Below, piece after piece: positions 17,966-60,888 of a stretch of 64,000 bases of DNA (position 1 is the first letter of the stretch; each line of letters starts with the position of its first letter). The notes under the pieces are model-generated. The model worked only from the letters and a program-made list of their open reading frames with translations, was not told the origin of the DNA and ran no database searches. Origin of the DNA: Cylicocyclus nassatus (lineage: Eukaryota > Nematoda > Chromadorea > Rhabditida > Strongylidae); NCBI GenBank assembly GCA_958299035.1, contig CATQJL010000001.1, forward strand, positions 48,300,461 through 48,364,460, written 5' to 3'. Both the position numbers and the translations under genes were made by a program.

Positions 17966-19083
17966 AGAGGCAACGTCCGGGCAAATCTCTGCCTCTCATG
18001 TTTTTGTCATTCTGGGGCCTTTCCGTGTCCCTGGTTACAGTTATAAAGTTCAAATTGTCCAAAACCCTCAGGAACCCGTTTTCTGGAAACCCTGTTTTGA
18101 GGGCGCGGATAAGTTTCGGATTTTTCATCTCCTCGGCTTGCCAGCGAAGAGTAGTGCAATTGTATGGGTGCAGTTGCGTTCTTGCGTGAGCACTCGTCCT
18201 CCGCGGGAGGATTCTGATCCAGGGGCGGTTTGTGATACGTATCACAGGCTCGTATCTCCTTTTAGGGCCGCATGCACTAACCTCCCCGCTGGGGAGGGGA
18301 TCGCAGCTTAAAAGAAAGCTTTATATTTCGAAACCCAGATACCTGGATTTCACGTTGTGTACCTATCCGTAAGTATTCCTACTACCCTTCACTATGAACA
18401 TGTTGAAGAGGAGCGAGAAGCTGTACGAACCGCATTTTCCAGCTTTGTATTATCCCTGATGATCCCCGGCGCTTTTCTTTAAAGTCATTTTTCTTTCTCC
18501 GAAGTTAACGAAAACCTTCCAAAGTTGTACTGAACATCTAACACAACAGTGCTAAGCATGTTGCTGATGAGAACAAATGAGTTTTTGAAAAGTCGAATTT
18601 TTCGGTAAACCTCAAATTTCGACCTGTGGATCATCGAAAATTTCATGACTTCAAAACATCATTTGTTCTTATCAGCAACATGCTTAACACTGTCGGGTTA
18701 GATAACCTGCACAACTTTGGAGGTTATTCGTTAACTTCGGAGAAAGAAAAATGACTTTAAAGAAAAGTGCCGGGAATCATCAGGGATCATACAAAAGCTG
18801 GAAAATGCGGTTCGTACAGCTTCTCGCTCCTGTTCAAAATGTTCATAGTGAAGGGTAGTAGGAATACTTACGGATAGGTACACCACGTGAAATCCAGGTA
18901 TCTGGAGTTTTGAGATATAAAGCTTTCTTTTAAGCTGCGATCCCCTCCCCGCGGGGATGTTAGTGCATGCGGCCCTTAGAGGCCACATCAAAGGATCGGA
19001 CCATCGGGTAGTCTTGGGGCCCGCTCTACAACTACTATATATGCTAATCTGGGTGGATGGATCTTGGGTGTACGCTGCCTTTA
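17966..19083. mobile_element. Long palindromic MITE, AAAGGCAG-end family, copy 4
   Basis: It starts AGAGGCAACGTCCGGGCAAA and ends ...GTACGCTGCCTTTA. Most of the interior is a near-perfect inverted repeat: arms about 18250-18555 and 18660-18985 match with few mismatches (for example CTTCGGAGAAAGAAAAATGA against its complement near 18500). The 146-codon frame at 17871-18311 runs through it and is not a gene. Confidence 0.85.
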
Positions 19084-20641: not shown

Positions 20642-22095
20642 CTTATAGTATAAGACCACTGACGATGCATATGATTTTATCTTGACATATTTGATGTTTT
20701 TTTTCATAACGTTCCTTTGGCGCATCAATGGATGCATTCAATGAATAAAAAAATATTAGGTTGGTGCATAATTCCTGCAATAAAATAGGTACAGACCGCA
20801 ATAATCCGGAATAATCCTATAACCCAAATGGAATTTGATACATCATTAGATAGAGCAAATCTAGCTCTACAAGATAGTGCTCAAAGTTTTGCAGCAGCTT
20901 TGATCCAATCGAAGATTGAAGCCAAAAACCAAAAAGATCCAAGCGCTCCAAAAAACCAAGAAAAAAATGGAAGTCCGTTTAGAAAAATCCATCAAAATTC
21001 CACACTTGCTCATGCATTGTCATTTCGTATAAGACATTTCTCTATGCAATTGCCGTATTTTTCTCTCAGCTAGAAATTAAGAAAACGAAGTTTTCCATGT
21101 TTTTTTTTCCAAAAACCATGCTGAGATGTTCTAGCACTGGCAGTTGTAAACAAAAGCATAGGTGCGATAGTGTGAGAATTTTCTCACCCCCTCTTCACCC
21201 TTGAGCCTGGACCAAGGTGACCCCCTTCACCAAAAGCCGAGAAAAAAATCAACAGTGAGGTAAGGTTAAGCAAAGGAAATATTTGTACGTGAATTGTTTA
21301 TGTGCAGGAATGGAGGAGTCTGTTGAAAAAAGTGCTTGATGACGGGTGTGAGTAGCGATTTCAGGACATTTTGGAGTTTTTAACATAAAATTCATATCTT
21401 TTGTAGATGAACATCTTTTGCGGCGAAATGGTCACCGTTGGAACCGCCTCGTCCTCCGCTTTCTGAATGCATACAGCATATCTGAGATCCATTCAAGAAA
21501 GTGCGGTGAAGGGTGTGCTTAGTGATTTCTGGAGATTTTCGAGTTTTTAACACGAAAAAAAATTCATTGCTTTCGTAGATGAACATCTTGTACGCCGTGA
21601 TTGTCACCATTGAAACCGTCTCGTCCCCCGCTTTTACAAAATATATACTTTGCCTGGGTCCGTTAGAAAAAGTGCCGCGTGAAGGGGGGGGGGGGAAGAC
21701 TTTTACAATATAATGGGGGTGCTCAAGTAGACGTCTTTTCACAATGGTAAGAAAGCCTGTACTTGAGCACTCCAATTATAAAAGTCTCACCCACCCTTCA
21801 CCCGGCACTTTTTCTAATGGACCCCAGGCAAAGTATATACTCTGAAGCGGAGGACGAGGCGGTTCCAATGGTGACCATCGCGGCGTACAAGATGTTCATC
21901 CACAAAAGTTATGAGTTTTTTTGTGTTAAAAACTCGAAAATCTCCAGAAATCACTAGGACACCCTTCACCCAGGCACTATTTTTAACGGACTCCAGGCAA
22001 AGTATATAATTTCTGAAAGCGGAGGGCGAGACGGTTCCAATAATGACCGGCGCGGCGTACATGATGTTCATCTTCAGAGGTTACGGATTTTTCGG

Positions 22096-24664: not shown

Positions 24665-25788
24665 CAGGGTAAAGCGGGGGGTGCGGCACTCGACCGTCGG
24701 ATACGACCCCCCCCCCTGATTGCTGTCTTAATAAGACCCCCCTCCTAAACTATACACTTAAGATAGTATTACCTGAAGGCTCTGTCAAACATAATGGACA
24801 ACATATCCATAATTAGCATGTCAAATACCCCCTGTAGACAAAGTGTGAGCGAATTCTGAAGATTCAAGATACTAGGCTACCTAAGTGAAATGGTCAAATT
24901 CCAACATGGTTAACTTTGTTTTAAAGGTGAATTAGCTATCCGTTTTTGCACTCAAGACAAAGCACTACTCCTTCTTTGTCCACCTCAGGAATCCCGCTTC
25001 AGAAGACCTCCAAACTGTGGAATTAGAAGCCAACCAAAATCTCATTTTTCCCATTTTTCGCTTTTGATGGCTGTGCTTTCACCAAATATTACTCAGAGCT
25101 AAGAAGACGAATCAGGCTCAAAACATCCCTATGGAATCTACGAGGTTTAGGCTATCGATTCATATAAATATTGTCCGCTAAAAATCTTTTTTTGATATAG
25201 TTAATGGCCTGCGGCACCCCCCCTCAAAACCTGCGGCTGCCGCAGGGGTGCCGCAGGGGTGCCGCAGGCCATTAACTATATCAAAAAAACATTTTTAGCG
25301 GACAATATTTATATGAATCGATAGCCTAAACCTCGTAGATTCCATAGGGATGTTTTGAGCCTGATTCGTCTTCTTAGCTCTGAGTAATATTTGGTGAAAG
25401 CACAGCCATCAAAAGCGAAAAATGGGAAAAATGAGATTTTGGTTGGCTTCTAATTCCACAGTTTGGAGGTCTTCTGGAGCGGGATTCCTGAGGTGGACAA
25501 AGAAGGAGTAGTGCTTTGTCTTGAGTGCAAAAACGGATAGCTAATTCACCTTTAAAACAAAGTTAACCATGTTGGAATTTGACCATTTCACTTAGGTAGC
25601 CTAGTATCTTGAATCTTCAGAATTCGCTCACACTTTGTCTACAGGGGGTATTTGACATGCTAATTATGGATATGATACGAATATCATGTTATCGCTATAA
25701 TCAGATCACCTAACTACGACCCCCTCCCCTTTTGACTCCTCAATACGACCCCCCCTCTGCGGCGTGCCGCACCCCCCGCTTTACCCTG
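24665..25788. mobile_element. hAT-like giant hairpin element (arms about 430 bp)
   Basis: CAGGGTAAAGCGGGGGGTGC and its inverse form the ends. The 8-bp direct repeat GTGATAAT flanks it (24657-24664 and 25789-25796). The interior is an almost perfect palindrome: arms about 24795-25215 and 25250-25675, centred on GCCGCAGGGGTGCCGCAGG-type repeats. The arms look nearly identical by eye, so the copy may be young. No protein is encoded. Confidence 0.9.
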
Positions 25789-32580: not shown

Positions 32581-32741
32581 AATCGTATTTGGTGCATTTT
32601 TGATCAAAGAGTGCTGTACCCCTTGACGAATATAGGGCCTGCTCAATTTGCATCCTACGATTGAATATCTCAGGTTTCTCGCAGTCCAGTCACTGAGTTT
32701 AATTCAAGACTCAAAATCTTAAGACGGAGCAGCGTTTTCAG

Positions 32742-33283
32742 CGTGGCCGAAGAAGATGTTAGTCGTGTGACGGAAGATGTCGTTGAGCCTTTGCTCGATC
32801 TTAACTTGGATCCTCATGAGATTTCATATGTTTTCAACGCTCTTGTATGGCATGTCGAAGGTAAAAAGGCAATCTATTCAGTAGTTTATAATCAGATTAC
32901 ATTTTTCATAGGATTTGAACAACAGCGGCGTGATTCAAATACTTGTTTAGAACTTAAGGATCTAGCGCCAGCATCGTTCTAAAAGAGGAAATACTTTTAG
33001 AACAAGACGTCCTGGAATCGACTAGAAATACAGCTGAAGAGGTATTAGACCAAATATCAGACGAACTACACGAGCATTACACCTATGATCTCAAAATGGC
33101 CAACTACGCAGCTCGACTCAATCGTATTCTTGGTTTGATATGGGCAATCAAAGTGAGTTTTGATTTATGTGGACGGCGTTTTCTGGTAGTGTGCCAGTTT
33201 TCAGAAAAACCAACGGGTTCTCTTGATGATTTGTGGCACGATGGCAGCACTAGGTATCAAACAGGAGATGCTGCAAGACTAAG
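32742..33283 (+). CDS. Unrecognised small multi-exon gene (5' exon not located)
   Basis: I do not recognise the family. Exon 32742-32860 follows a GTTTTCAG acceptor and encodes an acidic helical segment starting AEEDVSRVTEDVVEPLL. The donor GAAG|GTAAAA opens an intron of 51 bp (acceptor TTTCATAG, which soon leads to a stop at TAA 32979) or 97 bp (acceptor CTTAAG). The 97-bp choice keeps the frame into 32958-33151, which reads LEQDVLESTRNTAEEVLDQI and MANYAARLNRILGLIWAIK. A GTGAGT donor and TTTTCAG acceptor remove about 52 bp. The last exon (about 33204-33283) has a hydrophobic stretch, ends MAALGIKQEMLQD and stops at TAA. No ATG starts the first exon, so an upstream or trans-spliced exon is needed. 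Length and helical character suit a small structural or complex subunit; that is inference only. Confidence 0.55.
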
Positions 33284-34688
33284 GACGAGTAACGCCCATA
33301 CTGTTTGTGACATTCTTCGATTTTATATAAAGGAAGATTACGAGAGTGTGAATCGAATCGGCGACTGTGAATTACAACAACAATTTTGTCCTGGCATTCG
33401 TAAAATCTCGAAATGCATAAACGTTGTTCCCCATTCAAGGTTTATCGGATTGCAAGAAAAAGTGGAAAAGACAATTTTATAAAGTTCAACTTTTTTACTT
33501 TTAGTGCATAGAGAAGATGTGGGAGCATCTAGACCAAAACCTACCTGTCAGGGAAAGGAACTTTTGCACCTGAGTTATACCCTCGTACCTGACTGATGTG
33601 CCTACCAAGCACTTCTGACCTGCGGAAACGGTATAGGAGGAATCAAGGCCTTGCCGCCTGCATCCAAATGAGACAATCAAGAGCGCGAGCACTGCGGGAA
33701 AAGTTTGGCAAGGGTCCAAAAAAAGCTGGCGAAAGAGTTCGAGAAAGCTGAATGAGATTAAATTCTTATCACTTTGCTTGGAAATATACCAGAGGGATAA
33801 TTAGGACAAATTCGAAGTCGACATTAGAGGATGCATTTTATGCATTGATAAACCAGGTCTCACTAAAAGAGTTGTACACAGAAATTACAACCTTCGGACT
33901 GACAGTATTGAGGATTTGAAAATTTAAATTTTAGTCACAACGATAAGTTACTCAAGTTTCGGAAAATTTTTTCTAAATTCACTGAAGATTTTCAAAAGCA
34001 CTGAAATTTTTTCCAGTACTATCTTGAGGCTTTCAAATCCCTTCGTATAGTGCCCACGCGTATGCTGTTTGTTACAGTGCTTGGTAACGAACTAAATTTA
34101 GATTGATTTTTGATGATTAAAATGCTCCAAATTATGCAATGTACCATAATACGATGCCTTGATTGACTCAACTCATGAGATTGCCCTCACTGTCAAAAAT
34201 GAAGAAGAGATAGTGAAAAGAATTTTGTATCTGTTACTCAAAAAATTGCACTTCAAGTAGTATTCTCGTATCGAGAATAATAGATAGTTCCTTAGTAGAA
34301 ATAATAATATTCAAATTAAAAATTCTCTAATGCGCTTTTTGGTACTGATTGTGAATCTTTCATCCCTCAAACAGTCTTCCTAACGAAGTGATAAGGATTT
34401 ATTCCCTGATGACTCTTTATCTTTTTCCTCTAAGTTATCCTGGATGCTTGCCAAAGTTTCCGCAGTGTTGTATCCTTAGTTATCTCCTGAAGATACAGGA
34501 GGCGAATCCTTTGATTCCTCCTGCAACATCCCATGTGTGGCTGCGATGTTGTTCAGTGGACTGACAAATAATTGGTGCTTTGATGCACAAGCAAGTAGCT
34601 TGTGCGCCGATAAGAGAGAGCAACAATGCCCGTTCTCGGGGTTGGCTCGAGGACAAAGCAACTAAGGAGATCGTGATTATATTGCATA
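33284..34688. other. No supported feature
   Basis: AT-rich sequence downstream of the small gene. Several short frames but no recognisable domains or repeat ends. Confidence 0.4.
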
Positions 34689-44299: not shown

Positions 44300-45284
44300 C
44301 TCATATGTATTGTGCATGGCACAATTCAGGGCATTCTTCTCTATACAACCAGAAACTATCCTTTAATGTTCAAATACACAGAATTGTGTTTTTCCAATCA
44401 TCTTTTAATCTCCACTAGACTTAGAGAAGAAGTTCTCTCTTCAATCTTGTACTAATGGTCGCGAAAATTCCAAAAGTTTTAGATACTCTTTTCGCTGATG
44501 ACTCAAAGCTGTACTTTTAACCAACGAATTTAAAGTTTTGCATAAGCAATGAATCTAAAGCTTTGCATAAGAATTCCTTGAATAGTGCAACAAGTTAACT
44601 TATGGTTTGAGGTTTGAAGATGTTGCTGGTTGTGAAAAGGCCAAGATAGAAATTATGGACTATGTAAACTTTCTGAAGAACCATTAACAGATCTTGGCGC
44701 AAAAATTCCCAGCCTAAGTTATGTTTTTGAGTTCTGCGCCCTTAGATATCATGCTTCTCCAGATGCAAAATTAACTGGTCTGCACAGTACCGGTAAGACT
44801 CTGCTTGCCAAAAATTGCCGGTGAAGCTAGCTACCATTTACCACTGTGTCAAGCTCCGCATTCTTCGAACTTAATCTTATTTGTGCTTTTACATCCTCAA
44901 AATGTCATGCAAAAGACATTTTGTAGATCGTTGGCGTTGGTCCAGCTCCAGTTCTTGACATCACGTTTGCAATGTCACGAAAGAACAGCCCGTGCACTCT
45001 TTTCATTGGCAACATATTCCTATGGACGTAAGAGAGGTGGTAAAAGAGGAATGGGAGGTCATTGTGAACAGGAAAACACGCTGAATCAACTGTTAGTGGA
45101 AATAGATGGTTAGCATTTTTTTCAACTACTTCCAGTAATCTAATAACTTTTCGCGGCGATTGAGGCCTTGTCCTTTTCGGTCATTGGGTCCTTCTATCGA
45201 TTTACCGACTTTCAACCGTGTAACGAAAATGATTTTGCCACGAAAGCTTGGTACTTCCGTGAGGTTGTGATGCGTGCAAAATTA

Positions 45285-45975
45285 TTAGGTCGTACCGAAA
45301 GTTCTTGCGCACGATTTTCAAAAATTCATAACTTTTGATTTTTCCAACCGATTTGACTGCTTTTATTTTTTTATGAAAGAGCAAGTCATGCTCTTTACAA
45401 TGACATCTTAGCTGCTTGCTAACGCTGCATAGATGGGCGCGATAGAATAAAATTGGTCAAAATGCGAATTTTCTGTGTAGGGTCATAAAAAATCGGAAAC
45501 TTGCAACAAAAATCGAAGCAGTCAGTATTATAGGTTCTTCCACCAGCTCTTTCTACCTGTGCAAAGTTTGCGCTGATTGAGCGTCTCTATGAAAAGTTAT
45601 GATTTTCGCAATACAAAAGGGCTAATTTGATTTATTTTGGCATTTTTCAAGGAAATCATAACTTTTCATAGAGACGCTCAATCGGCGCAAGCTTTGCATT
45701 GTTAGAAAGAGCTGATGAAAGAACCTACAATATCGACTGCTCCGATTTTTGTTGCAAGTCTCCGATTTTTTACGATCCTACATAGAAAATTCGATTGACC
45801 AATTTTATTCTATCGCTCCTATCTATGCAACAGATGACCAGTGAGCATCAAAGATGTCATTATAAAGAGCTTGACTTACTCTTTCATACAAAAATAAAAG
45901 TAGTCAAATCGATCGGAAAAATCAAGAGTTATGAATTTTTGAAAATTGTGCGCAAGAACTTTCGGGACGACCTAA
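45285..45975. mobile_element. Mariner-like palindromic MITE inside the protease pseudogene
   Basis: TTAGGTCGTACCGAAAGTTC and its inverse (GAACTTTCGGGACGACCTAA) form the ends, flanked by TA (45283-45284 and 45976-45977). The arms are long inverted repeats (45285-45600 and 45650-45975) meeting near 45630. It is 691 bp with no transposase. The left-truncated relative at 22096-23075 has the same right end. Confidence 0.9.
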
Positions 45976-45983
45976 TATTTAAG

Positions 45984-49536: not shown

Positions 49537-50091
49537 ACTCAGATAATCGCCGGGGGCAGGCGGCCACGCGATTTAGGGCAAGCGGGGAGACCGAAAGATA
49601 TTTAGAAGAAAGTTGGCGAAATTTTAGACGAATGCTCGGGGAACACTCGCGGTCTCCTTATAGATTAGCTGCGGCGCAGTGGCCGCGTTCTCGCGGACTT
49701 TTCGCGAGAATATGCAAAAATATTGAGGGCCGCACGGTCCTTTGTGAAGGACCGCACAGCCCGTAGGTACCTTCCGCTGAAAGAAGGTACCTCAAACTTG
49801 AGTAATTAAACCATCGATGACAACTCTGCCACAAAGAGTACCTTTACTCGGCGTACGCCCGAAACTGCGTAAAAAGAGTCAGAGCGCCCGCTGAAAATTA
49901 GACCTGCGCTTGCTGAAAGGAATCACTTGACGACCGCCTGCAGAAAATTCTGTGTTGCTGCCCGCTGGCAGAACATTAGACAGTAAAGGAAGTACCGCTC
50001 GCTGAAGGTTTGGCCACGCCCCAAAATTCTGCTAACCGCCTGCAAAAAAGCGCGAGTTTGCGGACCGTCTGTCCCCGGCCATTGTCTGAGT
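49537..50091 (-). mobile_element. SL-carrying TIR element, copy 1
   Basis: CTCAGATAATCGCCGGGGGC at the left is matched inverted by the right end (GTCCCCGGCCATTGTCTGAG). It is 555 bp. On its minus strand it contains an SL1-RNA-like gene at 49687-49812. Outer sequences (CCGGAAA, GCGCGAGTTTGCGGACCG) are shared with the other copies. Confidence 0.85.
49687..49812 (-). ncRNA. SL1 spliced-leader-RNA-like gene, copy 1
   Basis: On the minus strand 49812-49791 reads GGTTTAATTAC then TCAAGTTTGAG. This equals the nematode SL1 leader except for C to T at position 12, and is followed by the splice donor GTACC. A hairpin follows (GGTACCTTC with GAAGGTACC), then a second with paired GCGGTCC/GGACCG, then a uridine-rich site TATTTTTGC that resembles an Sm site, then a third GC-rich hairpin (TTCTCGCG with CGCGAGAA). 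Leader, donor, stems and Sm site follow the order of nematode SL RNAs. Expression is unknown. Confidence 0.65.
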
Positions 50092-50545
50092 AAAGGCGTA
50101 CTAAAAGGACAAAGATATAAAATTCTACAGATGAGATGAAATAAGAAGAAAAGTTAGCGCTAGAACAACCCACCATCTTGAGTTTCTACATTTTCTTTGC
50201 CTTCAGCTTGTTACTGCATTTTCACACTAGCGCGAGATTTGAATGGCGGAGATTGCAGATGAGGCTATTTTCATTACGAGATCAACGTCCACCTTGGTTT
50301 GATGCCGTAAACTTCTGCTCGCAAGAAAGCAGCATATACAAAACTACGATGTTCTTCCTAAATTAGGAGCAGATACAAAGCAAAAATTTTTGCAAAGACC
50401 TTCACTTGTGTGACTAATTTTGTAGCAAAAAGACGCACGAAATTGAACACGTTGCGGTCGATCGCTACTTACAACAAACAAAACAAAGAAGAAGCCCAAG
50501 AAAAAATGTCTACTCTTCCCCTCCCCTTGTTGCACACGACAACAT
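50092..50545. other. Spacer between element copies; no supported gene
   Basis: AT-rich sequence with two short exon-like frames (50178-50366 and 50410-50607, +) that match no family known to me. Confidence 0.35.
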
Positions 50546-50973
50546 CTGAGATAATCTCCGGGGCACGGGCCATACGATTTATAGGCAAGCGGGCACCGGA
50601 AAAATAGTTCGTTGATTTCTTGCGGTCCGCTTGCAGATATTTGGAGAAATTTTGGCTAAATTTTAGACGGTTTCCTACAAATCAATTGCGGCGCAGTGGC
50701 CGCAATCTCGCGGACTTTCCGCGACAATATGCAAAATTATTGGGACCGCACGGTCCTTTGTGAACGACCGCACAGCCCGTAGGTACCTTCTGTTGCTAGG
50801 AAATATTCCAAACTCGGGTAATCCATCGACGACACCTCTGCTATGTAGAGTTTACCTTTGCTCGGCGTACGCCCGACCTGCGTAAAAGGAGTCCGAGCGC
50901 CTGCTGAAAGTTTGGCCCGCGCTCGCTGAAAGAGATTATTTGACGAGCGCCTGCAGAAAATTTTGTATCACTG
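50546..50973 (-). mobile_element. SL-carrying TIR element, copy 2 (decayed, right-truncated)
   Basis: It begins CTGAGATAATCTCCGGGGCA and follows the family consensus until it is cut by copy 3. On the minus strand, within about 50700-50830, the RNA-like part is degenerate. The leader reads GGATTACCCGAGTTTGG, keeping the CCC of canonical SL1 but losing the first bases and the GAG|GT junction. The Sm-like AATTTTG and the flanking hairpin are still present. Confidence 0.7.
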
Positions 50974-51268
50974 CTCAGATAACCGCCGGGGGCAGGCGGC
51001 CATGCGAATTTTGAGAAAGCGCGCACCGGAAAAATAGTTCGCTGATTTTCTGCGGTCCGCTTGCAGAAATTTGGATTAAAGTTGGCGAAATTAAAGACGA
51101 ATGCTTGAAGAACAATCTCGGTTTCTTTATGGATTAGCAGTGGCGCAGTATTTTTGCATATTCTCGCGGACTTTCCGCGAGAATATGCCCCCAGGTACTT
51201 TTCGCTGAGAGAAAGTAGCTCAAACTTGAGTAATTAAACCAACGGTGACACCTCTGCCACACAGAGTC
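50974..51268 (-). mobile_element. SL-carrying TIR element, copy 3 (internally deleted)
   Basis: It starts CTCAGATAACCGCCGGGGGC. On the minus strand the 22-base leader (51240-51219) is the same as in copy 1. The donor is CT instead of GT, and hairpin II with the Sm-like site is deleted, so it could not act as an SL RNA. The right end is lost where copy 4 begins. Confidence 0.75.
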
Positions 51269-51270
51269 TT

Positions 51271-51857
51271 ACTCAGATAATCGCCGGGGGCAAGCGGCGA
51301 TGCGATTTATGGGCAGGCGGGCACCGGAAAAATAGTTCGTTGATTTTTTGCGGCCCGCTTGCAGAAATTTGGAAGAAAGTTGGCGAAATTAAAGACGAAA
51401 GCTTGAAGAACAATCGCGGTTTCTTTATGGATTAGCTGCGGCGCAGTGGCCGCATTCTCGCGGACTTTCCGCGAGAATATGCAAAAATTTCGAGGGCCGC
51501 ACGGTCCTTTGTGGAGGATCGCTCAACCCTCAGGTACTTTCCGCTGAGAGAAAGTACCTCAAACTTGAGTAACTAAACCAACGGTGACACCTCTGCCACA
51601 CAGAGTCTTACCTGCGCTCGACGTACGCCCGAAAATGCCTAAAAAGAGTCCGAGCGCTTGCTGAAAGTTTGGCCAGCGCTCGCTCAAAGAAATTATTTGC
51701 CGACTTGCAAAAAATGCTGTATTGCTGCCCGCTGGCAGAACATGCGACAGCAAAGAAAGTACCGCTCGCTTAAGGTTTGGCCGCGCCACAAAATTCTGCT
51801 GACCGCTTGCAGAAAAGCGCGAGTTTGCGGACCGCCTGCCCCCGGCGATTATCTGAG
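51271..51857 (-). mobile_element. SL-carrying TIR element, copy 4
   Basis: Complete copy: CTCAGATAATCGCCGGGGGC at the left, inverted at the right (GCCCCCGGCGATTATCTGAG). It is 587 bp and contains the RNA-like gene at 51454-51579 on the minus strand. A partial copy 5 (51858-51971, right part only) follows immediately. Confidence 0.88.
51454..51579 (-). ncRNA. SL1 spliced-leader-RNA-like gene, copy 4
   Basis: On the minus strand 51579-51558 reads GGTTTAGTTAC then TCAAGTTTGAG, two differences from canonical SL1 (positions 7 and 12), followed by GTACTTTC. Hairpin I (GTACTTTC with GAAAGTAC), a hairpin II with a mismatch, the Sm-like AAATTTTTGC, and an 11-bp hairpin III (ATTCTCGCGGA with TCCGCGAGAAT) are all present. 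Confidence 0.6.
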
Positions 51858-51971
51858 TGCCCGCTGGCAGCACACGGAAGCACCCTTGCTGAAGGTTTTG
51901 CCACGCCCCAAAATTTTGCTGACCGCTTGCAGAAAAGCGCGAGTTTGCGAACCGCTTGCTCCCGGCGATTA
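51858..51971 (-). mobile_element. SL-carrying TIR element, copy 5 (terminal fragment)
   Basis: It matches the right 110 bp of copy 4 (GCCCGCTGGCAG... to ...CTCCCGGCGATTA), lacks the RNA-like part and has lost the last bases of the terminus. Confidence 0.75.
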
Positions 51972-57248: not shown

Positions 57249-58935
57249 TTATCGATATCTTTTTAAGCTGCAAAGTGCAGTCTTAGACTCAGCTCATCCA
57301 GGAGGACCGCGAACGATGAATATCCCAAAGTTGTCATTCTGCCGAGCCGCTGCCTTTGATACTATATCGAAAGATCATGCAGTTTCATGCACACAGAAGA
57401 GGTTGTGGCGAAAATGGCGAATTTGGTGAAATCTAGGCTGGTCAAAACTTGCAGCCACTTTCCGCTAAATGTCTTTGAAAAACTTGTCACCATCCATTAT
57501 ATCGGCTACAGTTGCACCCCTAAGCCTTGAGATATGCAGTGCAACTAGCACTCATCATACCCTAAAAAAGGAGATTTTACGGAGAGTTTGCTCGAACGCC
57601 AAATGACCACAAAAATTGGACAAATCATAAGGTTGACAAGAAGTAACCAGCTGATTCGTGCTTCTATGGAAAGGTTGTACCATTTGGACCTTTAGTGGCG
57701 GCTTGCGAATGCGACGGAGAAAGCATTATGTGGCATGCTTCAAAATCTACCATCATCTCAACTCAGATTCGGAGCACCCTCCAACTCAAAAATTGGGTTC
57801 AGCGGTCTAAAAAGTTCTCAAACTTGATGAGAACACTGCTTCCACAAAGACAAGCACTTGCCCGAAACTCGCGGAGTTTTATAGGAAGCATGGAGGCGCT
57901 ACTGTCAGAGAAAATTGCGATTGTCACATCTAGAAAATGTTCGGTTACCAAAGGAAATATCAGTTCTGAAATTCGCGCAAACTTTTCCGAAACAGTAACG
58001 TCTCCATGTTTCCAATGAATCTCTGCAAAATTCAGTGCTTGTCTTTGCAGAAACAGTGATCTCATCAAGTTTGAGAACTTTTTAGACCGCTGAGCCCAAT
58101 TTATAAGCTGAAAGATGCTCCAACTCTGAGTTAAGATGAAGGTAGACTTCCAAGCATGCCTGGTCATGCTTTTTCTGTTGCAATCGCAAGCCGCCACCAA
58201 CCGTCCAGATAGTACAACCTTTACTGGCGAGCACGAATCAGCTGATTACTTCTTGTCAACCTTATGATTTGTCCAATTTTTGTGGTCATTTGGCGTTCGA
58301 GCAAACATGCTCCGTAAAATCTCCTTTTGGTGTTTGATGAGTGCTAGTTGCACTGCATATTTCAAGGCCTAGGGGTGCATCTGTAGGCGAGATAATGGAT
58401 GGTGACAAGTTTTTCAAAGACATTTAGCGGAAAGTGGCTGCAAGTTTCGACCAGCCTAGATTTTACCAAATTCGCCATTTTCGCCACAACCTCTTCTGTG
58501 TGCATGAAACTGCATGATCTTTTGACATAGTGTTAAGCATTGTGATTCGTACGTAATATCAAGATTTGGATCCGTTCTATGCAAAACACAGTAAGATATA
58601 GCAAAATTTGGGAGGGACTGCAACCTTGGCCAGCGCTGTATTGATGCCCTTCCTACAGCGGCATAGTTCAACTTTTCCTAGAATTTCGATAGTCTCCAAA
58701 CACTGTTACTTTTTTGCTTTACTTAATAAGCATTCTTTTGCAGCAATTTGACAATCGGGAGGACGTTGCATTTTGCGAACGGCTTCATTCTTGTTTGTAA
58801 TCAAGAAAACTGCGAGTTCCAGCAGTTTTCGGGAATACCTAAAATTCTTCCATATTGCTATCAATGGTGGGACAGTTCGTACACATTGTAGTCCACGTCA
58901 TATATCACATAAAACGGATGATACAATGCGTCTAA

Positions 58936-59065
58936 GGGTTGGGCCAGATTGCGCGGCGTACGCGACGTACGCAGCGTACGCCGCGTATACTCCTATGATG
59001 AAATATCCCGAGCGTACGCTGCGTACGCCGCGTACGCCGCTTCCCCGCGAAGTCTGGCTCAACCC
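58936..59065. mobile_element. 130-bp MITE with TAA target duplication and GTACGC repeats
   Basis: The ends GGGTTGGGCCAGA and TCTGGCTCAACCC are inverted and flanked by TAA (58933-58935 and 59066-59068). The interior consists of CGTACGC repeats in both orientations. Similar sequence appears near 28948 (TTGGGCCAGACTTTGCGACG), perhaps a decayed copy. Confidence 0.88.
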
Positions 59066-59134
59066 TAACGGAGCCAGACCGCAAAGTGCAGTCACACATC
59101 TTGCGCCGCCGTATATGCAACGTGCAGGGACCAT

Positions 59135-59723
59135 CTCAGATAATCGCCGGGGGCAGGCGGTCCGCAAACTCGCGCTTTTCTGCAGGCGGTCAGCAGAATT
59201 TTGGGGCGTGGCCAAACCTTCAGCGGGCGGCACTTCCTTTACGGTCGCATATTCTGCCAGCGGGCAGCAATACAGCATTTTTTGCAAGCGCTCTGCAAAT
59301 AATTTCTTTTAGCAAGCGCTGGCCAAACTTTCAGCAAGCGCTCGGACTCTTTTTAAGCATTTTCGGGCGTACGTCGAGCGCAGATAAGACTCTGTGTGGC
59401 AGAGGTGACACCGTTGGTTTAATTACTCAAGTTTGAGGTACTTTCTGTCAGCGGAAAGTACCTGGGGGTTGCGCGGTCCTCCACAAAGGACCGTGCGGCT
59501 CTCGAAATTTTTGCATATTCTCGCGGAAAGTCCGCGAGAATGCGGCCACTGCGCCGCAGCTAATCCATAAAGAAACCGCGATTGTTCTTCAAGCATTCGT
59601 CTTTAATTTCGCCAACTTTCTTCCAAATTTCTGCAAGCGGGCCGCAAAAAATCAACGAACTATTTTTCCGGTGCGCGCTTGCTCAAAATTCGCATGGCCG
59701 CCTGCCCCCGGCGATTATCTGAG
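59135..59723 (+). mobile_element. SL-carrying TIR element, copy 6 (opposite orientation)
   Basis: CTCAGATAATCGCCGGGGGC and its exact inverse at the right form the ends (at least 26 bp perfect). It is 589 bp, isolated from the cluster at 49.5-52.0 kb and inverted relative to it. It carries the best-preserved SL1-like gene, at 59416-59541. Confidence 0.9.
59416..59541 (+). ncRNA. SL1 spliced-leader-RNA-like gene, copy 6 (best preserved)
   Basis: 59416-59437 matches SL1 at 21 of 22 bases (C to T at position 12) and is followed directly by the donor GTAC. Hairpin I pairs 59437-59445 (GGTACTTTC) with 59454-59462 (GAAAGTACC). Hairpin II pairs 59471-59479 (GCGCGGTCC) with 59488-59496 (GGACCGTGC). 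The Sm-like site AATTTTTG is at 59506-59513. Hairpin III pairs 59517-59527 with 59531-59541 (11 bp, AAG loop). In nematodes such an RNA, capped and Sm-bound, donates its leader to mRNA 5' ends. Length (about 126 nt) is slightly above the usual 100-110. The about 25 bases upstream (GGCAGAGGTGACACCG) are conserved between copies. Confidence 0.7.
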
Positions 59724-59915
59724 ATGTTACGCACAAAATTGTGAACCTAGTTTTCATTATTCTATGTCGTCAATTTTCATTTTTGCAGCAGCGCATTGTC
59801 TTTTTTTTTGTTTCTATGCTCGCTGCATCTGCCTTGATTCCGAATACGATTATTTTCGCAACAAAGGGAGGAGTCATTAAACTTTTTCGGGTGGCTGATT
59901 TGCCGGATGTCATTA

Positions 59916-60888
59916 TCTTATATATAAAGCTGAATGTCTGTTTGTCTGTCTGTATGTCTGTCTGTATGTCCGTCTGTGTGTACGTATGTTCCGAATAGAA
60001 AATTCCATTTCAGAACCGATCCGGACCAAACTTGGCACACATACACTTCGGGCCCCGGCGGGTGTCATAGGCTACTTTTCGTCATCGATCGATATCGATT
60101 TTATCAATTTTTATCGATTTTTTTGCTGAGTTCACCTACGGGGCTGGGAGTTCGCACAGGGCGGTAATCGAGCATGGGGATTCCGAATACAATATTGGTT
60201 TTCAGGATTATCGATTACTTTTGTCGATTTTATCGATTTTTTTGCAAAGTTTGAGCTACGGGGCTGGGACTTCGCACAGGGGGGTAATCGAGCATGGGGA
60301 TTCCGAATACAATATTGGTTTTCGGGATTATCGATTACTTTTATCGATTTTATCGATTTTTTTGCAAAGTTTGAGCTAGGGGGCTGGGAGTTGGTACAGG
60401 GGGTAATCGAGCATGCTGATCATCCCCAAGGGATCTTGAAAACTAATATTGTATTCGTAATCTGCATGCTCGATTACCCCCCCCTGTGCAAACTCCCAGC
60501 CCCGCAGGTCAAACTTTACAAAAAAATCGATAAAATCGATAAAAGTAATGGACGATTCTGAAAACTAATATTGTGTTCGTAATCAGCATGCTTGATTACC
60601 CCCCTGTGCAAAATCCCAGCCTCGCATGTCAAAATTTACAAAAAATCGATAAAATCAATAAAAGTAATCGATAATTCTGAAAACTAATATTGTATTCGGA
60701 ATCCCCATGCTCACTTCCCCCCTGTGCCAACTCCTAGCCCTGTAGGTGAACTCTGCAAAAAAATCGATAAAAATCGGTAAAATCGACATCGATCGATAAC
60801 GAAAAGTGGACTGTGACACCCGCCGGAGCCCGAAGTGTATGTGTGCCAATTTTGGTCCGGATACGGCGGAGCCGGGTAAGCCAGCTAG
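59916..60888 (+). mobile_element. Helitron-like non-autonomous element, copy 3
   Basis: It starts A|TCTTATATATAAAGCTGAATG and ends GCCGGGTAAGCCAGCTAG|T. The left half has TGTCTGT repeats, then the GGACCAAACTTGGCACACAT block. The middle holds three or more repeats of about 120 bp (GATTATCGATTACTTTT...GGGGGGTAATCGAGCATG). The right half carries the same blocks inverted, so the element is largely self-complementary. Confidence 0.78.

Follow-up and report, generated by a model that had tools for sequence, protein, structure and literature searches.

The window, a stretch of 64,000 nt of the Cylicocyclus nassatus genome (C1:48300461-48364460), contains a 589-bp element, here called copy A, whose cargo, as far as the sequence can be read, has the anatomy of an SL1-type spliced-leader (SL) RNA gene. 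The element belongs to a real transposon family, characterized by terminal inverted repeats (TIRs), 2-bp target duplications, and nested and dispersed insertions. With a probability of roughly 0.64, we consider it to be a non-autonomous transposon with a captured SL RNA gene, which was under some RNA-level selection in the transposing lineages and is probably transcribed at a low level, the tandem SL1 arrays being the main donors. The leader of copy A differs from SL1 by a C12T change (T12 leader); together with GT, it has 1047 exact copies in the genome, more than the 470 of the exact canonical leader with GT. Transposon ends flank 20 of 22 units that were sampled by the leader.

According to this reading, a short DNA transposon that has TIRs and encodes no evident protein would have captured an SL1-type SL RNA gene. 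A transposase made elsewhere would move the element, producing 2-bp duplications at CAYC-TA-GRTG-like sites, and each fresh insertion would plant a free-standing SL-type RNA gene, because the cargo keeps the leader, the donor, the hairpins, and the Sm-like site. The RNA would be made and would be important in the lineages that transpose, and single insertions would then decay. An SL-type RNA is probably still produced at a low level from some copies; we think that the SL1 genes of the tandem arrays are the main donors, and the role of the element in trans-splicing is apparently minor. Activity of even a few copies would mean that transposition can enlarge and diversify SL repertoires, and the variant leader bases would be ready tags with which leader use could be measured in available RNA-seq data. 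Should all copies be inactive, the family would still be a clear example of a transposon that has taken up an snRNA-like gene together with its essential parts. A search of the open-access literature by titles and abstract beginnings found no SL RNA gene within a DNA transposon, and the T12 leader sequence was not found in the open-access papers searched.

The element in the window and in the genome

The features of copy A, of its relatives in the window, and of the canonical SL1 arrays are listed in Table 1. The repeat search agreed with the initial annotation, which had placed an RNA-like unit between perfect 26-bp TIRs, and delimited two arms of 29 nt with 100% complementarity (59132-59160 and 59698-59726); the symmetrical CAT/ATG flank outside the TIRs contains the AT/AT 2-bp duplication. 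The other elements of that description, namely a 21/22 match to SL1 with an immediate GT donor, three hairpins, and an Sm-like site 5' of the third, were also recovered. The region 59416-59545 (130 nt) folds into three hairpins with an energy of -67.6 kcal/mol (z -8.9), and none of 200 shuffled sequences folded as well. The combination had been judged very unlikely to arise by chance, and this was borne out at the genome level: the exact T12 leader with GT occurs at 1047 places, compared with 0 for the reversed control; thus, its presence in copy A is not a chance match. The SL gene had further been called complete, which holds for the anatomy of copy A but not for every copy, since 14 of the 22 units chosen by the exact leader contained the Sm motif in a strict search. 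The Sm-like sites are regarded as putative; in some older element copies the site reads AATAATTTTG.

Table 1. Coordinates of the element copies, their features, and the canonical SL1 arrays (positions in the window unless C1 is given)
Feature	Position	Strand	Remarks
Copy A, putative non-autonomous DNA transposon with SL-type RNA gene	59135..59723	+	589 bp
Left TIR of copy A, CTCAGATAATCGCCGGGGGCAGGCGG	59135..59160	+	26 bp, perfect; repeat search
Right TIR of copy A	59698..59723	-	repeat search
Target duplication AT, left copy (copy A)	59133..59134	.	sequence reading
Target duplication AT, right copy (copy A)	59724..59725	.	sequence reading
Conserved block TTTCGGGCGTACGTCGAG	59361..59378	+	about 55-38 nt 5' of the leader; candidate promoter element
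SL-type RNA gene of copy A	59416..59541	+	126 nt
SL1-like leader with C12T, GGTTTAATTACTCAAGTTTGAG	59416..59437	+	21/22 to SL1
GT splice donor, predicted	59438..59439	+	adjoins the leader
Hairpin 1, donor site within the stem	59436..59463	+	two-sided change in 3/11 pairs
Hairpin 2	59464..59503	+	two-sided changes 0; 95.1% of cells paired
Sm-like site AAATTTTTG, 5' of hairpin 3	59505..59513	+	sequence motif
Hairpin 3	59512..59544	+	two-sided change in 2/14 pairs
Copy B	51272..51857	-	94% identical; A7G in the leader; abuts copy C, without a 2-bp duplication
Copy C, pseudogene	50974..51271	-	5'-truncated; GC at the donor; without hairpin 2 and with an inverted hairpin 3
Copy D, pseudogene	50543..50974	-	76% identical; degenerate leader, C at position 12
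Copy E	49538..50090	-	86% identical; T12 leader with GT intact; compensatory changes in hairpin 1; 2-bp duplication absent
Fragment of a further copy	51888..51971	-	element positions 10-93
Canonical SL1 tandem arrays	C1:30138576-30172808 and from C1:31608642 (L082-L091)		about 680-bp repeats

Four further units and one fragment were located on the minus strand at 49.5-52.0 kb, that is, 7-10 kb from copy A, and the SL anatomy was kept in copies B and E (in B with one leader change). The block TTTCGGGCGTACGTCGAG was recognizable in copies A, B, D, and E and in other copies shown, and was lost in L020 834.

The genome search covered a 514.7-Mb assembly; the counts refer to the whole assembly, and individual positions are known for the first 100 matches listed. 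The T12 leader is followed by a base other than G at 37 places, compared with the 1047 at which GT follows. With up to one mismatch, leader plus GT was found at 2133 places, 470 of which are canonical SL1 with GT, and the TIR 26-mer (T or C at position 10) gave 2155 matches. The 40 best-scoring element places were 97-100% identical, about 589 bp long, and distributed over six large contigs. These counts, obtained by the genome-wide search that the initial annotation had proposed, agree with its view of an SL gene multiplied and scattered by a mobile element: the leader is present at about a thousand places, and the copies read include TIRs, 2-bp duplications, and both nested and dispersed insertions. 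Among viral contigs, from which records close to this genome were possibly excluded, the exact leader with GT was absent.

Several other features of the window were recorded. A palindromic repeat cluster rich in GCGTACGC lies just upstream of copy A (58952-59040), and large self-inverted repeats of foldback or MITE-like appearance, 78-98% identical to their own reverse complements, occupy positions 24802-25674, 57361-58531, 60019-60862, 18258-18982, 45280-45980, and 21387-22091. Pieces of a nuclear hormone receptor ligand-binding domain (PF00104), for which the sole protein relative found was from Cylicostephanus goldi, were detected at 32665-33479; a Pfam scan of ten window ORFs gave nothing above the cut-off except one nuclear-receptor fragment.

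Probable kinship with the SL1 RNA genes and a second leader subfamily

Nematode SL1 genes are known from tandem arrays. Apart from the element, the canonical SL1 genes of this genome form such arrays with a spacing of about 680 bp in two stretches of C1 (from 30.138 and 31.608 Mb); a scan of two array loci with Rfam found no 5S rRNA. The cargo of the element resembles the tandem SL1 RNA genes (RF00198) in having a 22-nt leader, a GT donor, hairpins, and, 5' of the last hairpin, a putative Sm-like site. In contrast to the array gene, it is transposon-borne, its leader carries C12T (or A6T and A21G in a second subfamily), its RNA is 126 nt rather than 101 nt long, and its hairpins are different and far more stable (-64.6 versus -24.9 kcal/mol). 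At the 5' end, the array SL1 RNA has 29 of 31 nt in common with the element RNA, and the remainder is unrelated. The donor of the element sits in the stem of the first hairpin, where the pairing partners are unlike those in stem 1 of the Rfam consensus.

Two details bear on the origin of the cargo. Just before the initial GG, the array gene has TCGAC and many older element copies have TCGAT; this resemblance suggests that the source was a gene and not a copy of an mRNA. Moreover, T12 is probably derived from C12, because some older element copies carry C at position 12. A comparison of the upstream regions of the array SL1 gene and the element revealed no clear common promoter, nor did it reveal a clear counterpart of the block TTTCGGGCGTACGTCGAG upstream of the array gene.

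The comparison with covariance models, which had been proposed as a check on SL ancestry, gave a divided result. RF00198 was aligned over its full length (1-103) with copy A, but with 18.6 bits against a gathering threshold of 75 (E 0.99), and copy E had no SL1 match to this model at E<=10. The array SL1 genes of this genome scored 37.5 bits, also below the threshold, and at the gathering cut-off Rfam reported nothing in the window or in any of six loci, two of which belong to the SL1 array. Since the array SL1 loci fail it as well, the gathering cut-off cannot decide SL membership.

A second leader, GGTTTTATTACCCAAGTTTGGG, was found in TIR-flanked copies of L049 and L005, where GT and the usual hairpin sequence come after it. 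It matches SL1 at 20 of 22 positions (A6T and A21G), differs from T12 by three changes, and occurs with GT at 282 exact genome places (control 0). When the leader was ignored and elements were chosen by their ends among the first 100 TIRs listed, 19 short TIR pairs were obtained, of which 13 contained exact T12 with GT, 5 the exact second leader with GT, and 1 (C1:1459862-1460425) neither type. Another 56 TIRs of these first 100 were single; 14 of them had T12 with GT and 8 the second leader with GT within about 600 bp. Two or more subfamilies, distinguished by their leaders, have spread. Between these two leaders with GT, 3 of 24 positions differ, and the flanks of the second-leader copy in L005 are 87% and 83% identical; since the leader has diverged no less than the flanks, it was not frozen between the subfamilies.

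Families of SL1-like variant leaders are likewise described in Strongyloides ratti, where they were seen on mRNAs; the part of that report available to us describes no transposon carriage (PMC1657053). A separate observation concerns L092 (C1:31165000-31166700), a different foldback-like repeat with eight canonical SL1+GT 24-mers in both orientations, which lie about 65-82 bp apart within clusters and have no SL RNA body.

Possible constraint on the RNA and use of the leader

In the 40 top-scoring copies, which were picked by similarity, the leader with GT carries 3 changes compared with 12.4 expected (Poisson P 0.0016), and 19 of 566 24-nt windows have equally few changes. The RNA body of the same copies shows 0.0145 changes per site per copy, with a background of about 0.013 and a value of 0.0183 for the right TIR. 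One-mismatch leaders number 616 against 1047 exact ones, a ratio of 0.59; the divergence of 20 copies, themselves selected by the exact leader, predicts 1.7-1.9 when all differences outside the leader are counted and about 0.4 when only private ones are. In copies encountered next to other copies, the leader carries 0-9 changes, in some cases including indels. The stems were compared in an alignment of 35 units (34 distinct), hand-picked with divergent ones included and badly truncated ones excluded: 96.5% of cells are paired, and two-sided changes occur in 5 of 40 pairs compared with 1.1 after shuffling, a level reached in 1 of 500 shuffles by a control that ignores relatedness. We read this pattern as near-neutral decay of single insertions, with the leader and donor mostly kept in the transposing lineages. 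That the RNA was made and mattered in those lineages is suggested by the matched stem changes and by the intact leader and donor in nearly all perfect-TIR elements, although such elements are young, which counts against taking leader intactness as constraint.

A possible record of leader use is provided by LTR retrotransposons. The canonical SL1 22-mer is present in both LTRs of elements at L062-L081 on C1 (e.g., L065/L066, L069/L070, and L074/L075), frequently with A(A)TAAA, which resembles a poly(A) signal, immediately in front of it, and the three LTR pairs checked were 98.8%, 99.7%, and 99.5% identical. DUF1759, which we take to be a BEL/Pao gag marker, was detected in 2 of the 7 frames scanned (loci L069 and L075). 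Of the 20 scattered loci read, 9 have ATAAA directly 5' of the leader, and these include one of the three checked LTR pairs. Throughout the genome, ATAAA with canonical SL1 occurs at 123 places, which include non-independent pairs and for some of which LTR status was established; the 100 places listed comprise 23 neighboring same-strand pairs 5-16 kb apart, as expected of LTR pairs. The corresponding search with the T12 leader, the only variant leader used in it, gave 0 genome places.

The SL1 that follows A(A)TAAA in the LTRs resembles an R region that originated as a copy of a trans-spliced 5' end. In Brugia malayi, SL1 beside PAO LTR retrotransposons was explained by trans-splicing of the retrotransposon RNA, according to the accessible part of that report (PMC7181701). 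If LTR RNAs are trans-spliced in C. nassatus as well, new LTRs would copy whichever SL was used, and the ATAAA+SL1 setting may record SL use. The count of 123 against 0 suggests that T12 is a minor leader at best in LTR-element RNAs. The idea that the scattered copies serve as trans-splicing donors found no support here, and the same count speaks against a large share for them in the germ line.

The LTR record is also the first of several observations compatible with a cargo that was captured and then carried without use as an RNA, so that intact leaders would simply mark young copies and the hairpins would be a DNA-level feature, serving, for example, the transposase. The RNA body is not less variable than the background, some other windows of the element are as quiet as the leader, the leader differs from one subfamily to the other, degenerate copies (C and D) are present in the window, and the strict Sm motif is missing from part of the exact-leader units. 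However, one of the two exact leader types with GT is present in 18 of the 19 perfect-TIR pairs, one-mismatch leaders are rarer than the rest of the element predicts, the stems contain paired changes, and GT follows the leader far more often than a non-G base does (1047 versus 37). We regard a cargo unused as RNA as a serious alternative, yet a rather unlikely one.

It is also doubtful, and slightly more so, that the copies constitute a mobile SL gene family, i.e., a dispersed, self-multiplying second set of working SL donors with at least two leaders (T12 and GGTTTTATTACCCAAGTTTGGG) that would be used on particular mRNAs or at particular stages and kept intact by selection acting on the copies that transpose.

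Fully working mobile donors, whose leaders would be trans-spliced onto some mRNAs or transposon RNAs at some stage or in some tissue, appear improbable to us. The donor, hairpins, and Sm-like site are intact in many copies, exact T12 leaders with GT exceed the exact canonical ones in number, and two distinct leader types are each kept intact, all of which would be consistent with function; the LTR-type record (0 versus 123) is not. Of the 37 T12 leaders followed by a non-G base, 20 were read, and 17 of these proved to be mutated elements; the other 3 are joined to non-element sequence, as retrocopied mRNAs would be. These odd joins could nevertheless be explained by mutation of C12 to T in SL1-bearing retroelements, and one of them, L110, has CCCGCGTGGC, which is found downstream of SL1 in several such retroelements.

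Transposition and other routes of spread

Under the preferred reading of a transposon with a captured SL RNA gene, the dispersal of the copies is due to transposition. The copies read comprised the 30 top-scoring ones, 10 more from the same list, and 20 regions from the leader listing on C1. Both ends were readable in 28 of the 30 top-scoring copies, with a 2-bp duplication in 21 and a 3-bp duplication in 3 more. Sampling by the leader alone gave 22 units. Both TIRs (<=3 mismatches in 16 nt) were present in 20 of them, and a 2-bp duplication accompanied the two TIRs in 19 units. When the copies with distinct flanks were pooled, a 2-bp target duplication was present in 47 of 59, compared with a mean of 7.9 and a maximum of 18 in 2000 shuffles of the flanks; the remaining 12 include the window copies B and E. 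The target site of the 47 duplication-bearing copies is palindromic and CAYC-TA-GRTG-like. These duplications at palindromic targets indicate that the element transposes. Nested insertions, in which some element copies lie inside other copies, were also observed.

In being short, in having TIRs and target duplications, and in numbering about a thousand copies or more, the element resembles MITEs; it differs from them in its cargo, an SL-type RNA gene. The varied 2-bp duplications, the palindromic target, and the CTCAG ends do not give it a superfamily name. The Tm1 Mutator/foldback family of root-knot nematodes is also a nematode transposon in which one group carries an RNA-processing motif, the histone hairpin; unlike the present element, it has 9-bp duplications and composite TIRs, and no SL RNA gene is mentioned in the portion of the report available (PMC3169594).

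Ordinary duplication, tandem or segmental, is very improbable as a general explanation for the spread of the SL gene in place of transposition. The cluster at 49.5-52.0 kb does consist of same-strand, partly joined copies, copies B and E have no target duplications, and L015 and L024 have common flanks; duplication may account for parts of the window cluster. For most of the copies read, it is refuted by the 2-bp duplications in 47 of the 59 distinct-flank copies, and the ends are sharp at the TIRs and the target is palindromic.

Capture of the leader only, by reverse transcription, as proposed for the Brugia PAO elements, which likewise bear the SL1 22-mer on a mobile element but in the available part of the report have the leader sequence rather than a whole SL-type RNA gene (PMC7181701), has a precedent in the SL1-containing LTR pairs of this genome, but is scarcely credible for the element, whose donor, hairpins, Sm-like site, and upstream TCGAT would all be absent from a copy of an mRNA. 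An LTR retrotransposon with leader-only SL1 was also considered as the identity of the element and was ruled out by the SL RNA body, the intron-side sequence, and the TIRs.

TIRs lie farther apart at two places on C1, C1:19087258-19091524 (4267 bp) and C1:1228683-1230616 (1934 bp), the second of which contains a second-type leader close to one of its ends; both pairs may represent longer, or autonomous, relatives of the element.
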